Positions 27,567 through 34,727 of a DNA stretch of 35,220 nucleotides are shown here, one piece after another (position 1 is the stretch's first letter; each line of letters starts with the position of its first letter). The stretch lies in the IMG/VR virus record IMGVR_UViG_3300030098_003503, positions 1 through 35,220 of that record; one strand, written 5' to 3'. The notes under the pieces were generated by a model. The model was given only the letters and a program-made list of their open reading frames with translations, was not told where the DNA came from and did no database searches. The DNA is from a virus. A program made the translations under genes and the position numbers.

Positions 27567-28027
27567 GGCACGTTAATAAAAAAGGACTCTCCATTATCAA
27601 GAAGTGGGAGGGTTTTCCAGAAAGTAGGCCGGGTTGGACAAGCGTATACCTATGCCCGGCGAATAGATACACGATTGGGTATGGTTCTACATGGGATCTT
27701 GATGGGGATGCTATCCGGGCTGATCACCCGGACATTACGAGAGAGGAAGCTGAGAAGTATCTCCAACGTGAGGTTAGCCACGTTGAGAAAGCAATTGAGA
27801 AACTTATCACCGCCGAACTAACAGACAATATGTTCAGCGCACTTGGAAGCTGGGCGTATAATGTTGGCACTGGTGCGATGCAGCGATCCACCTTGCGCCA
27901 ATGTTTGTTAAGGGGTGAGTATGAAAAAGCGGGAGACCAATTCCTTCGATGGACTTTTGCTGGTGGGCGTAAGCTCAAAGGGTTGATCTCCCGAAGGTTG
28001 GAGGAGAAATCTCTCTTTCTCAGTTAA
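27563..28027 (+). CDS. Endolysin, GH24 lysozyme
   Basis: The 154-residue muramidase cuts the glycan strand of peptidoglycan at lysis. Motifs: KKWEG with Glu16 as acid, YLCPANRYTIGYG (Thr37, with Cys31 where many relatives have Asp), ITREEAEKYLQREV, then FSALGSWAYNVG and LLRGEYEKAGDQFLRWTFAGGRKLKGLISRR, the standard GH24 order. Relative to short forms there is an insert after Glu16 (FPESRPGWTSV). There is no N-terminal signal segment, consistent with holin-dependent release. Its end overlaps the converging gene at 28020-28265 by 8 bases. Confidence 0.9.
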   Translation: MRHVNKKGLSIIKKWEGFPESRPGWTSVYLCPANRYTIGYGSTWDLDGDAIRADHPDITREEAEKYLQREVSHVEKAIEKLITAELTDNMFSALGSWAYNVGTGAMQRSTLRQCLLRGEYEKAGDQFLRWTFAGGRKLKGLISRRLEEKSLFLS

Positions 28028-28265
28028 TAACTTGCAAGCTCCGTTGTTGGCCTGGAATGTTTGTGACATACCCTCGCTCTTTTAATCTCTTTATATAACC
28101 GTGGACATTGGAGCGGTTGGTATTCATCAACTTGCACAGCTCAGTATAGCTGGGACTGTGTCCGTGTTCTTTTATCCAGTGGTCAATTAAATTAAGGGTA
28201 TGCATCTGCTTAGGTGTCAGACCCTTCTTCTTAACAACTTCACTGCCGCATTGCTGGCAAATCAT
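28020..28265 (-). CDS. Small LexA-like winged-helix regulator with zinc knuckle
   Basis: The 81-residue protein has an N-terminal MICQQCGSE CxxC pair followed by a LexA-N-terminal-like winged helix: LTPKQMHTLNLIDHWIKEHGHSPSYTELCKLMN, then NRSNVHGYIKRLKERGYV and a short wing RSLQV. It lacks the LexA protease domain, so it may be a small phage regulator. It starts inside the stop of the annealing recombinase gene (ATGA overlap) and so ends the minus-strand recombination operon. It could control those genes or late genes. Confidence 0.7.
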   Translation of the reverse strand: MICQQCGSEVVKKKGLTPKQMHTLNLIDHWIKEHGHSPSYTELCKLMNTNRSNVHGYIKRLKERGYVTNIPGQQRSLQVIN

Positions 28266-30214: not shown

Positions 30215-30236
30215 AATCCCCATATGTACTCTCCAT

Positions 30237-30422
30237 TGCTAGTCACTTGAAAAGAATATATGGGGTGATATAGGGAAATGTGATTGACTAATTTTAGTCT
30301 AAGTGGCTGTTATCCTTGGATAAGCGTAATCTCTCCGGGGTCGCCACTCTCCTTATATTTCCTCATATATTCAATTACTTAACACTTTGCTAGTCACTTT
30401 CCTTTCTAACTGCTAGTCACTT
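30237..30422. repeat. Three 12-bp direct repeats, integrase arm-site candidates (attP region)
   Basis: TGCTAGTCACTT occurs exactly at 30237-30248, 30388-30399 and 30411-30422, all in the same orientation. The last copy covers the integrase stop codon. Two copies lie close together on one side and one on the other side of a 140-base segment that holds a tRNA-3'-end-like sequence. This geometry is that of arm-type integrase or excisionase binding sites around an attP core. There is no gene in 30081-30416. Confidence 0.65.
30331..30346 (+). other. Candidate attachment-site core resembling a tRNA 3' end
   Basis: CTCTCCGGGGTCGCCA lies between the arm-like repeats and looks like the T-stem 3' half, acceptor strand (GGTCGCC) and discriminator of a tRNA. 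No complete tRNA can be folded here because the 5' part is missing. Phage attP cores often copy the 3' end of a host tRNA gene. The exact core borders cannot be set without the host sequence. Confidence 0.45.
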
Positions 30423-31538
30423 TTTAGCAGTTTTCTTGTAATCCATAAACTCTACAACTGGTTTAGCCATCTCTCCATCATACGCTTTTTTAGTATAATG
30501 ATCAGCCATTTTGTCAGACTGCCATCCAAACAATGCCCTTAACTGTGCAGTAGATGCACCAGCTTTTCTTGCAATAGTAGCTGTCCCCTTGCGTATGCCG
30601 TGGGGGACGCACCTATCAGGCAACCCGGCCTTTTTTCTTGCTCTTACCAGCCATTGGGAAAAAGTCTTTTCTGACTTGTGAGGCATCCCATGAGTGTGAA
30701 CCAGGTAAGTCATTTGACCGCTGGGCGTTTTCTCAATAATCTTTTTTAACTCCGGGGCTAGTGGGATTTCCATCGGCTTATCATTTTTCTTTGCCGTGAA
30801 CTGGATCATACCATTTTGTTCCATGTGTTTGCCCAGACGATACGCATCACTCACCCTGGTGCCTGTCCAGTAAATGACTTCAAAGGCGAGGCGTTGCATT
30901 GTCCCAACTTTCCAATATTTTCTATACTGTTCGATCTCGTTTATGTTCCAAACATGGTGACCGTCACAGCAGTCGCATTTACTGACATTGATTCTGTCTT
31001 CGTTGCTGGTCTCATCCAGCCGCTCAACCTTCTCAATAGGATTGGCATATCCATCCGGCAATAGCTGTTGTTTAATTGCCCAGGTGTATAATGCCTGTAG
31101 AGCTTTCAACCGATTGTTTGCAGCGGCTGGAAGTTGTGCCTTCTCATCACGAATTTTTATACCCCAGGTTATATTCATTTTAATATACGGGTGATGACCG
31201 TGTGTCTTTAATATACCTTCAAGCACCCCACGCTTTTGACTTCGTGTACCCGCTTTAAATTTTTTAAACTTCGGGCTGGCAAAATATTTGTAAGCTAGCC
31301 AGTCGAGTGTACCCGCTGGAATTTCTCCACCCTTTTTATTTATCTCATGTCTAAGCTCGGCTAACTTATCTGCTTTCTCTAATTCAAAACCTACCCGATC
31401 TTTAACGGGATCGGTTTTCATACAGTCTGGGTGTTTTTTCCCTTTGTAACGAACATAAAAACGAACCGTACCCCGGTTATCTACATAGGCATTTATATAT
31501 TTAATCTTGGGAAGTTTTTTTATCGTCAGTCCAGTCAC
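30417..31538 (-). CDS. int: Tyrosine integrase
   Basis: This site-specific recombinase for integration and excision has 373 residues from a GTG at 31538. I chose that start because GGGAGG lies 6 bases upstream and it sits one base after the stop of the HTH gene. An ATG frame to 31610 would add 24 unlikely residues. An N-terminal beta-rich arm domain (INAYVDNRGTVRFYVRYKGKKHP) and a helical core-binding domain precede the catalytic domain: TGTRVSD (Arg228), KKNDK (Lys250/251), HGIR (His313, Arg316), GWQSD (Trp339) and DHYTKKA (Tyr348). An odd CDCCDGHH segment near 188-195 looks like a metal-binding insert between domains. Its 3' end abuts the att-like repeats. Confidence 0.9.
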   Translation of the reverse strand: MTGLTIKKLPKIKYINAYVDNRGTVRFYVRYKGKKHPDCMKTDPVKDRVGFELEKADKLAELRHEINKKGGEIPAGTLDWLAYKYFASPKFKKFKAGTRSQKRGVLEGILKTHGHHPYIKMNITWGIKIRDEKAQLPAAANNRLKALQALYTWAIKQQLLPDGYANPIEKVERLDETSNEDRINVSKCDCCDGHHVWNINEIEQYRKYWKVGTMQRLAFEVIYWTGTRVSDAYRLGKHMEQNGMIQFTAKKNDKPMEIPLAPELKKIIEKTPSGQMTYLVHTHGMPHKSEKTFSQWLVRARKKAGLPDRCVPHGIRKGTATIARKAGASTAQLRALFGWQSDKMADHYTKKAYDGEMAKPVVEFMDYKKTAKK

Positions 31539-31539
31539 C

Positions 31540-31770
31540 CTATGCCTCCCAAGGCTGTTTTTGCTGATAGGTGTCAGACTTCTCTGGAAGGCTTTCAATA
31601 GCGAGGTCAAGTTCCTGAATGTCCCAGATTACTCGTCCAGGGGACACTTCCTTGGATGAGGGCATTTTTTTCTTGGTCACCAGTTTATCAAAGGTGGTGG
31701 CTGATACGCCTACATAAAAAGCGGCCTTTTCTCTGCTCAGTCCCCTCGGCCACAATCCATTTACTTTCAT
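31540..31770 (-). CDS. HTH excisionase/AlpA-like regulator
   Basis: The 76-residue protein has a MerR/AlpA-type helix-turn-helix: LSREKAAFYVGVSATTFDKLV (about 10-31), then a wing-like GRVIWDIQELDLAIESL. Such small proteins bend attachment-site DNA (excisionase) or activate integrase genes. It is the first gene of the pair with integrase, with good ribosome site AAAGGAG and a TATAAT-type -10 only 23 bases upstream of the ATG. The operator array at 31836-31895 lies just upstream, so its own expression is likely controlled there. Confidence 0.75.
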   Translation of the reverse strand: MKVNGLWPRGLSREKAAFYVGVSATTFDKLVTKKKMPSSKEVSPGRVIWDIQELDLAIESLPEKSDTYQQKQPWEA

Positions 31771-31821: not shown

Positions 31822-31835
31822 AAAAATCGTTGCTC

Positions 31836-31895
31836 AAAATGGTGACCGTTTTGGAGTCCATTTTGGAGTCCATTTTGGTGACCGTTTTGAACACC
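31836..31895. repeat. 12-bp-period palindromic operator array
   Basis: Four 7-bp palindromes with central G repeat every 12 bases: GGTGACC (31841), GGAGTCC (31853), GGAGTCC (31865), GGTGACC (31877), with a degenerate fifth, GAACACC (31889). All are separated by 5-base (G/A)TTTT linkers, and AAAAT precedes the first. The order of types is A-B-B-A. The array fills the gap between the 198-residue gene's stop and the excisionase promoter. It should bind a protein side by side with near one-helical-turn spacing. Confidence 0.75.
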
Positions 31896-31896
31896 T

Positions 31897-32493
31897 TTAA
31901 AAATCAGGCTGCTTAAATTCGTCATTCATTATTTCCGCTATCAGCGGATCATTCGGCTCCATTTGCCGAGCGTATTTGGGCAAATTGTGGTGCTGGGCAA
32001 TGTCCCAAAACAGAAGCTGTTGGCGTAGAAAAGTTCGGAGTTCCGGGCCAGTTAGGTAGATCAATTTGATGCGGCAATTCCAGCTTGCGATTGTCTCTCG
32101 CAAATAATCTCGCTCAATCGCCTCCTTTATGATTCGTCTTTTTGTGCTTGCGGATACGTCATAGGACATTGCGTGGTAGCATTCATTCAGTGGCGTGCCA
32201 ACAGACCCAGATCCAGCCTTTAAAGCCTCAAGCGCATTTTTGCCCACTGTCAAAATAAGCTGTGCATGGGCAATGCTCTGCCCCCAAAAACTAACCGCAT
32301 TCGCTCGATTGTCATACAAATCCAGTTTGAAATTGGCGATTGCCAGACAGTAATTCACGGGAGCAGAATATTTGTTCGCTTGAATCCAATCGAAATCGTC
32401 TGGGAACTCCGTAGCAAATAGGGTATGGCCCGCACCTTTTGTTGTATTTGATATCGGGTCATTGGGGAACCTTTCTTTTTTAATTTTGTTCAT
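31897..32493 (-). CDS. Hypothetical protein of the recombinase operon
   Basis: The 198-residue protein has a very strong ribosome site (AGGGAGG) and an ATGA overlap with the serine recombinase stop. It is mixed alpha-helical with many aromatic residues (DFDWIQANKYSAPVNYCLAIANFKLDLYDNRANAVSFWGQSIAHAQLIL, LRQQLLFWDIAQHHNL). It has no signal peptide, HTH or catalytic motif that I recognise. Translational coupling to the serine recombinase and the operator array at its 3' end suggest a part in recombination or lysogeny control. Confidence 0.65.
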   Translation of the reverse strand: MNKIKKERFPNDPISNTTKGAGHTLFATEFPDDFDWIQANKYSAPVNYCLAIANFKLDLYDNRANAVSFWGQSIAHAQLILTVGKNALEALKAGSGSVGTPLNECYHAMSYDVSASTKRRIIKEAIERDYLRETIASWNCRIKLIYLTGPELRTFLRQQLLFWDIAQHHNLPKYARQMEPNDPLIAEIMNDEFKQPDF

Positions 32494-33260
32494 TTTTTAC
32501 CTCCCTCTATTGAATTAATTAATTTTTTTACACTCTCTGCCCTCCAAATTGGAGCTGGCTTGCCTTCTTTACGGCGGCTGGAGTGTTCACTCATTATCTC
32601 AGCCTGGTAGGTCTTAACGCCCCTGGCATTTAACGCCCTGGCAATACCTCGGAGTGAAATTATGCCCGCTTCTTTTATTTCAACTATTGTCGGATAAATC
32701 TTTTTTGCAAACGCCTTTGTATTTTTTTTGGTCGCTTCTGTCCCAAGTTTCCGCACATCTCGTACATCAGGATTGCCCAGAGCAACACCTCGTTCTTTGG
32801 CGATACCCAGTGCAACTTTCGTTCGCTCCGCTGTGGCCTCTGCCTCGGCCTCTGCAACTGATGCCAAAATTCGCCACATCATTTTTGTCTGCCAGGGAGA
32901 ACCCATCGATGGTATGTCTGCGGCGACAATCCCTATTCCGTCGCGCTCGGCACTCTCTGCCAGTTTAGAAAGAAAAGAAAAATTACGGGTGAGGCGATCC
33001 ATCTTGGCAACAATGAGAACTGCCCCATCTGCCTTACACTTTTCCAACGCCTCACGCAGAACAGGTCTGCCAAGGCGAGTCTTTCGTCCAGACTCCACCT
33101 CTTTGCATTCCTCTATTATCTCCAGCCCCAGTTCCTTTGCCTTGGCTGTAGCGATCTGTTTTTGTGCGTCCAGGCCCAGCCCACTGACACCTTGCTTTTG
33201 CGTACTCACCCGAAGGTATATACGACAAGTGTCAGCGTCTTTATTTATTTTGGATAGCAT
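32490..33260 (-). CDS. Serine recombinase (resolvase/invertase family)
   Basis: The 256-residue protein's catalytic domain includes IYLRVSTQKQ with nucleophile Ser19, then GLDAQKQ, VESGRKTRLGRPVLREAL, IVAKMDRLTRNFSF (active-site arginines near 89-92), the long E helix MWRILASVAEAEAEATAERTK, and a C-terminal HTH around 200-225 (LRGIARALNARGV) with a short tail. It belongs to the small resolvase/invertase type rather than the large serine integrases (about 500 residues). The start overlaps the upstream small gene by 20 bases. It may act in resolution, inversion or as a second mobility enzyme beside the tyrosine integrase. Confidence 0.85.
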   Translation of the reverse strand: MLSKINKDADTCRIYLRVSTQKQGVSGLGLDAQKQIATAKAKELGLEIIEECKEVESGRKTRLGRPVLREALEKCKADGAVLIVAKMDRLTRNFSFLSKLAESAERDGIGIVAADIPSMGSPWQTKMMWRILASVAEAEAEATAERTKVALGIAKERGVALGNPDVRDVRKLGTEATKKNTKAFAKKIYPTIVEIKEAGIISLRGIARALNARGVKTYQAEIMSEHSSRRKEGKPAPIWRAESVKKLINSIEGGKK

Positions 33261-33662: not shown

Positions 33663-33710
33663 TAGATTTTCTCCTCTTGTTGTTGTGTTGTTTATCAATC
33701 GTTCCTCTAT

Positions 33711-33753
33711 TAATTAAACTATAGTTGTGATAGTGTCAATAGACAAATACAAA
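33711..33753. promoter_or_regulatory. Divergent promoter region between recombinase and early operons
   Basis: On the minus strand TTGACA (33734-33739) is followed 17 bases on by TAATTA (33711-33716), suitable for the operon starting at 33662. On the + strand TTGTGA (33725-33730) with TACAAA (33748-33753) at 17 bases could serve 33779. The two overlap face to face, so only one side would fire at a time. The -10 hexamers are imperfect. Confidence 0.4.
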
Positions 33754-33778
33754 TATTTTAAAAAAGGAATCTTAGCCT

Positions 33779-34331: not shown

Positions 34332-34461
34332 CGAAGAGATAGATGCACAATTTCTGGTTGACGAAAACAGGAAATTAAAAAAACAGGTGGAGGATTTAAA
34401 CAAGCAATTAGAGGCAATTGAAATTGTAGTCAAAATGGTAATGAAGTGGGGTAAGAAATGA
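34324..34461 (+). CDS. Small coiled-coil protein
   Basis: The 45-residue frame overlaps the RusA gene by 8 bases (preceded by AAAGGAG) and the next gene by ATGA. It is charged, with heptad-like helices (DENRKLKKQVEDLNKQLEAIEIVVKMVMKW), so a dimeric coiled coil is likely. The function is unknown. The ribosome site and overlaps on both sides support translation. Confidence 0.6.
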   Translation: MADEEIDAQFLVDENRKLKKQVEDLNKQLEAIEIVVKMVMKWGKK

Positions 34462-34727
34462 TATTCCCGGAGATAGGCAACATTGTGAATCCGTACAGAA
34501 ACAGTCCCACCAGTGTCGCGGATATTATCCGTGAAGTATGTGCCGACTACAATATTACTTTGGCGCAGTTAAAGGGAGAGACCCGTGTCTCAAAAGTATG
34601 CCAGGCGAGGTGGGAGGCGTGGAGTCGTATTCACGAAGAACTGGGTTTCAGCAGTCGGCAGATTGCAAGGCGATTTAACCGAGACTGCTCCACAGTTCGA
34701 CATGGTCTCAGGAAAAATGCAAGCTAA
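34458..34727 (+). CDS. Stand-alone DnaA domain IV-like DNA-binding protein
   Basis: The 89-residue protein corresponds to the C-terminal (domain IV) part of DnaA without the AAA+ domain: IIREVCADYNITLAQLKGETRVSKVCQARWEAWSRIHEELGFSSRQIARRFNRDCSTVRHGLRK. In DnaA the last helix reads DHTT; here it is Asp-Cys-Ser-Thr (76-79), so a base-contacting histidine is replaced by cysteine. It may bind DnaA-box-like DNA at a phage origin or serve as a regulator. Phages are known to carry such small versions, but the role is inferred. Confidence 0.7.
   Translation: MIFPEIGNIVNPYRNSPTSVADIIREVCADYNITLAQLKGETRVSKVCQARWEAWSRIHEELGFSSRQIARRFNRDCSTVRHGLRKNAS

Follow-up and report, generated by a model that had tools for sequence, protein, structure and literature searches.

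A palindrome array with a 12-bp period upstream of an extended −10 promoter is a candidate operator in a marine phage

Introduction

Lambda PI, which depends on CII, and the P2/P4 late promoters, which depend on Ogr/Delta, are activator-dependent phage promoters. Operator arrays before integrase operons are familiar, as is the exchange of regulatory cassettes among phages. Winged helix-turn-helix (wHTH) recombination directionality factors (RDFs) and regulators, such as RdfS, lambda Xis, and BldC, form filaments at integrase-control regions, where they load cooperatively and head to tail at intervals of about one helical turn (PMC11963761). Here we analyze an array of four short palindromes in IMG/VR record IMGVR_UViG_3300030098_003503, a marine bacterial virus; the window is the whole 35,220-nt stretch, positions 1–35,220 of that record. 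The array lies between a gene encoding a 198-residue protein and a promoter that faces an excisionase-like gene and a tyrosine integrase. We tentatively read it as an operator, upstream of an extended −10 promoter, whose tandem sites would bind a phage regulator, probably the 198-residue protein.

Results

Structure of the array and its promoter

The array consists of four 7-bp odd palindromes, each with 3-bp arms flanking a single G or C: GGTGACC (31841–31847), GGAGTCC (31853–31859), GGAGTCC (31865–31871), and GGTGACC (31877–31883). The units together span 31841–31883, their start-to-start spacing is exactly 12 bp, and the plus strand linkers are GTTTT or ATTTT. Two palindrome types, A and B, at an exact 12-bp period with T-rich linkers had been proposed from an unaided reading of the DNA (the original prediction), and the sequence, Tandem Repeats Finder (TRF), shuffles, and surrogates all agree with this description. 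TRF detects a 12-bp tandem array of 3.4 copies at 31849–31889. A three-unit pattern with two mismatches allowed matched only the array in the window and nothing in 100 dinucleotide shuffles. None of 300 first-order surrogates of the window contained a run of four odd palindromes spaced 12 bp apart (maximum 3), and the run of tandem similarity reached 3 at the array compared to 1 in all 40 surrogates. The four-palindrome array is far beyond chance. The fifth unit of the original prediction is present as a degenerate copy, GAACACC (31889–31895), which abuts the stop codon of the 198-residue gene, but it is not palindromic. A coding repeat was ruled out: the array lies between open reading frames (ORFs), and the ratio of nonsynonymous to synonymous divergence (dN/dS) supports an end of the 198-residue gene before the array.

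The genes around the array are all on the minus strand, in the order serine recombinase, 198-residue gene (31897–32493, directly upstream of the array), array, promoter, excisionase-like helix-turn-helix (HTH) gene, and tyrosine integrase. The promoter has a perfect −10 hexamer, TATAAT (31798–31793, minus strand), and a poor −35, both as predicted. The prediction overlooked that the hexamer belongs to an extended −10 element, TGATATAAT (TGA-TATAAT; 31801–31793, minus strand), so a good −35 is not required. A consensus promoter scan omitted this promoter because of its poor −35. The palindrome centers fall at about −58, −70, −82, and −94 relative to the inferred transcription start.

Conservation of the array in related phages

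Three loci were compared: the window and the L004/L013 and L005 loci of IMG/VR phages that carry the 198-residue gene. Array, palindromes, and 12-bp unit are all found in these relatives, where the original prediction had proposed to look for them. L004/L013 has two units, GGACTCC and GGTCACC on the coding strand, in the order B-A, and L005 has three units, each GGAGTCC. The array begins a few bases past the stop codon of the 198-residue gene in all three phages, and the −10 hexamer (TATAAT in the window and L004, TAAAAT in L005) starts exactly 42 nt past the CC of the last unit. The dyad, GGT-ACC or GGA-TCC, is retained in 9 of 9 complete units. Thus, repeated sites at a fixed promoter distance, the arrangement expected of an operator array, are kept in the window, L004, and L005. 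Unit number varies (four in the window, two in L004/L013, three in L005), which is typical of operator or iteron arrays. The A-B-B-A order, to which the original prediction gave meaning, is not conserved, and a symmetric order of two A and two B units arises in two of six arrangements by chance. Nothing in the data points to the two regulators, bidirectional loading, or switch that had been suggested from it.

A 19-nt segment that joins array and promoter, ATTTTGAGCAACGATTTTT (31822–31840, minus strand), is invariant in the window, L004, and L005. Its identity between the window and L005 holds though half of the synonymous sites in the adjacent gene differ (pS 0.52, dN/dS 0.13). The similarity between these two loci extends toward the promoter, with 23 of 40 positions identical compared to 13.9 in shuffled sequence (p 0.001).

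The genes that follow the array differ. In L005, the downstream gene is an RstR-like XRE repressor in place of the excisionase-like and integrase (xis-int) genes, and the L005 integrase is of another type and lies 3.5 kb from the array. The window and L013 are 97–99% identical over most of the integrase side, but the 198-residue gene is divergent, indicating that this gene and the array were exchanged as an allele and that unit number changes fast. The genes overlap in the nearest relatives of the HTH-integrase pair, Rivra, Mae-JY35, and phi2LM21, and there is no comparable gap or array beside the integrase gene in these phages, which places the array outside the xis-int module. The array always follows the 198-residue gene, and its promoter spacing is fixed even in L005. 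These data assign it to a cassette of 198-residue gene, array, and promoter that does not belong to the integrase. The predicted position upstream of an excisionase-like/integrase operon therefore stands for this phage, where the HTH gene and the tyrosine integrase lie downstream, whereas the array itself is tied to the 198-residue gene and its promoter rather than to xis-int and precedes a different gene in L005. An IMG/VR scan for dyad-flanked blocks found no further 12-bp arrays besides the known relatives.

The 198-residue protein

The 198-residue gene is under purifying selection, with dN/dS of 0.13–0.16 at a synonymous divergence of 0.83–0.87 between the window and two relatives, and the protein is ~80% identical in the two IMG/VR phages. 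Homologue searches returned only L004/L005 from IMG/VR, none from phage or plasmid collections, and none from 385 genomes that belong to the class of L027 (a Bradyrhizobiaceae metagenome-assembled genome). Neither the protein family nor this exact array is described in the libraries that were searched. Of three non-significant PDB matches to residues 99–165, two are to a MarR-type protein and TubR (E values 1.4 and 1.7), which is suggestive only of a MarR/TubR-type winged helix in the carboxy terminal part. Adjacency to the array and co-inheritance with it make the 198-residue protein the first candidate ligand. The 81-residue LexA-like protein and the ribbon-helix-helix (RHH) protein were rejected as obvious ligands since no evidence connects them to the array; the former keeps only its DNA-binding part, and the gene of the latter has a separate divergent intergenic region (33699–33778).

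Neighboring genes and the attachment site

The first gene past the promoter encodes a 76-residue excisionase/AlpA-like HTH protein (31540–31770, minus strand; phrog_25900, 5e-10; phrog_66 excisionase, 4.5e-5). It is followed by the tyrosine integrase (30417–31610, minus strand; PF00589, 1.5e-15), whose start codon is uncertain. On the other side, a resolvase/invertase-type serine recombinase (32490–33260, minus strand), present alongside the tyrosine integrase, overlaps the start of the 198-residue gene (ATGA). The 81-residue protein (28020–28265) matches the LexA DNA-binding domain and lacks the peptidase part, so it is not a LexA-like self-cleaving repressor. An 89-residue protein (34458–34727) matches only the carboxy terminal DNA-binding domain of DnaA (PF08299, 1.6e-12). 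The structural genes (1275–27566) are HMO-2011-like, with a terminase ~50% and a capsid ≤61% identical to HTVC033P. Despite this structural type, the phage is temperate, carrying an integrase, an excisionase-like gene, and a phage attachment site (attP). Integrases were already known in the HMO-2011-like group (PMC9038755). Among the ORFs of the window, none was noticed that encodes a DNA polymerase, and no search was aimed at one.

The probable attP (30236–30422) lies 3′ of the integrase gene and consists of three copies of TTGCTAGTCACTT around a core, AATCTCTCCGGGGTCGCCA, that resembles a tRNA-Arg 3′ end. The copies at 30236, 30387, and 30410 correspond to about −95, +45, and +68 from the core, and this attP is conserved in L013. 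In the searched 22-mer, the core differs by one base from the 3′ end of the G048 tRNA-Arg(CCT) gene. A long attP core was found in none of 240 and 229 genomes with a query that included phage-side bases. The annotated att site of phi2LM21 is also 3′ of its integrase gene. In Agrobacterium phage Rivra (L047, 4310–4510), GGCTAACC repeats at ~12–13 bp spacing form an arm-like tandem set directly 3′ of the integrase gene.

Tandem GGWSWCC arrays with a 12-bp period occur at tyrosine-integrase/tRNA junctions in L014, L018, L026, L027, L029, L030, L035, L039, and L041–L044. L014, which has a partial tRNA-Leu-like core, and L018, which adjoins a tRNA-Gly gene, are the two unrelated integrase-side cases of the viral scan. 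The GGWSWCC tandem array is possibly a recurrent arm-type motif across several bacterial phyla and phages; a literature search found no published GGTGTCC arm motif. GGACTCC-AAAAT-GGAGTCC repeats also occur within genes that resemble phage replication initiators, at L010 (5760–6015) and L009 (8510–8615, which also has GGACACC), and these in-gene repeats may be origin iterons.

Discussion

We propose that two to four tandem sites (five with the degenerate copy), spaced about one helical turn apart, would receive a regulator upstream of the extended −10 promoter, which in the window would transcribe the excisionase-like HTH gene and the integrase. The 198-residue protein, or a different regulator of this phage, may load cooperatively on these sites and activate or modulate the downstream promoter, and unit number may tune occupancy. 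We infer binding of a protein at the array, the 198-residue product as its ligand, and an activating effect, the last from the upstream position of the sites. Several observations weigh against this operator. Only three loci are known, two of which have the xis-int side in common. An activator may be unnecessary at the extended −10 of the window and L004. Family searches with the 198-residue protein returned no match, its MarR/TubR likeness derives from non-significant matches and reading by eye, and its AlphaFold model reaches a pLDDT of only 39. Finally, the entire block also folds well as RNA.

This last property underlies the main rival, which we regard as rather unlikely, that the array is a long hairpin ending the transcript of the 198-residue gene as a terminator, attenuator, or 3′-stabilizing structure. 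The promoter-side flank GCTCAAAATGG (31832–31842), kept in L004 and L005, pairs with the gene-side flank CCGTTTTGAAC (31882–31892), so the entire array is dyad-symmetric, which the original prediction overlooked, and foldable into one long hairpin in which the A-B-B-A order would reflect nested pairing of A1 with A4 and B2 with B3. The coding strand gives a single hairpin fold at all three loci (z −3.7, −3.6, and −7.0), the outer stem GTTCAAAATGG/CCATTTTGAGC and the subsequent CGATTTTT are conserved, and stand-alone GG-NNN-CC-AAAAT-GG-NNN-CC hairpins turned up elsewhere in the genome scan (L021–L023, L031–L033). However, tandem palindromic units fold regardless of function, and the conservation between the window and L005 continues into the promoter. 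The T run begins 5 nt past the stem rather than within the 0–2 nt of a standard intrinsic terminator, a terminator scan called no minus strand terminator at the array, and an Rfam search gave no match. The two L004 units differ and cannot pair mutually in RNA, yet each has its own dyad. In the window, a coding-strand C-A mismatch interrupts the outer stem, and the antisense strand folds better (z −5.5).

Binding of the array by the integrase or the excisionase-like HTH protein, as arm-type-like or RDF filament sites that autoregulate the xis-int promoter, is a less probable alternative that we consider distinctly unlikely. A bacterial genome scan for exact matches to a related two-unit pattern gave 25 loci, 12 of which have a tyrosine integrase at ≤1.5 kb (Verrucomicrobia, Acidobacteria, Bacteroidota, and Proteobacteria); the other matches comprise repeats within coding sequence, simple hairpins, and arrays for which no integrase was called. 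Arrays stand between a tRNA 3′ end and the integrase gene in L035, L039, L043, and L044 and flank a tRNA-like core in L029 (GGACACC twice on one side, GGGCACC three times on the other), and some of the adjacent integrases have arm-binding domains. Tandem 12-bp repeats of this kind thus commonly serve as integrase arm sites, but the scan pattern was derived from the window, and tandem repeats of 12 bp in non-coding DNA are frequently arm sites irrespective of motif. Autoregulation has been documented in KplE1, where attL overlaps the int promoter (PMC2951348), and wHTH RDFs oligomerize head to tail on DNA (PMC11963761). Against these points, the probable attP of this integrase is 1.4 kb away with different arms and a tRNA-Arg-like core, rather than within the ~200 bp of the att core expected of arm sites. 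The array was thus rejected as the attP arm set, an argument that leaves integrase or excisionase binding at the promoter unaffected. The L005 array, 3.5 kb from a different integrase, precedes a repressor gene, and the array stays with the 198-residue gene rather than with the integrase, being absent beside the integrase genes of Rivra, Mae-JY35, and phi2LM21. As for an excisionase or RDF filament, which would form on direct repeats beside an att core, the excisionase-like HTH gene is a neighbor of the array, which itself lies away from the att core, and L005 lacks this gene beside its array. It is very improbable that the array is an iteron-like replication origin or a centromere recognized by the 198-residue protein. 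A gene followed by tandem short repeats and the weak TubR match fit this idea, since TubR is a winged-helix protein that binds direct-repeat centromeres (PMC5016525), and similar units lie within the putative replication genes of L009 and L010. On the other hand, L004 has two units only, no replication gene or TubZ/ParM partner adjoins the array, the phage carries an integrase and attP, and the promoter spacing is conserved. Compared to an iteron origin, which would combine an initiator gene, several iterons, and an AT-rich/DnaA-box region, the locus has two to four units, no recognized initiator, and a 198-residue protein that lacks a family match.

An operator for a phage regulator is the reading we retain. 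A broader version, which we consider unlikely, is a portable regulator-operator-promoter cassette: marine phages would swap a new winged-helix phage family together with its array, the operon downstream, be it integration genes or a repressor, would come under its control, and unit number would act as a fast-evolving dial. If the 198-residue protein is the ligand, it would represent a new phage regulator family with an operator already defined, and it would act on the integration genes of a temperate phage whose HMO-2011-like structural type is abundant in the sea. The exchange of the downstream gene at a fixed 42-nt spacing provides a clean natural experiment on promoter control. If the protein is not the ligand, the array would be an ordinary operator or hairpin.

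The array resembles intrinsic terminators in its strong stem-loop and T run after a gene, and it differs from them in the displacement of the T run by 5 nt, the loss of inner pairing in L004, and the reach of conservation into the promoter. Like arm-type sites, it is a ~12-bp tandem direct repeat in non-coding DNA near an integrase gene, and its unit is also seen at tRNA/integrase junctions in several phyla; unlike them, it is away from the att core in a phage that has other probable attP repeats 3′ of its integrase gene. It shares with lambda PI and the P2/P4 late promoters upstream regulator sites, a weak −35, and control of integration or other phage genes. It differs from these promoters in its extended −10 and in having several 12-bp palindromes in tandem, from −58 outward; no CII- or Ogr-like gene was found. 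The proposed cooperative loading on the array would resemble that of the wHTH filaments, but RdfS sites have no consensus motif, whereas the array is built of strict palindromes at a fixed period.
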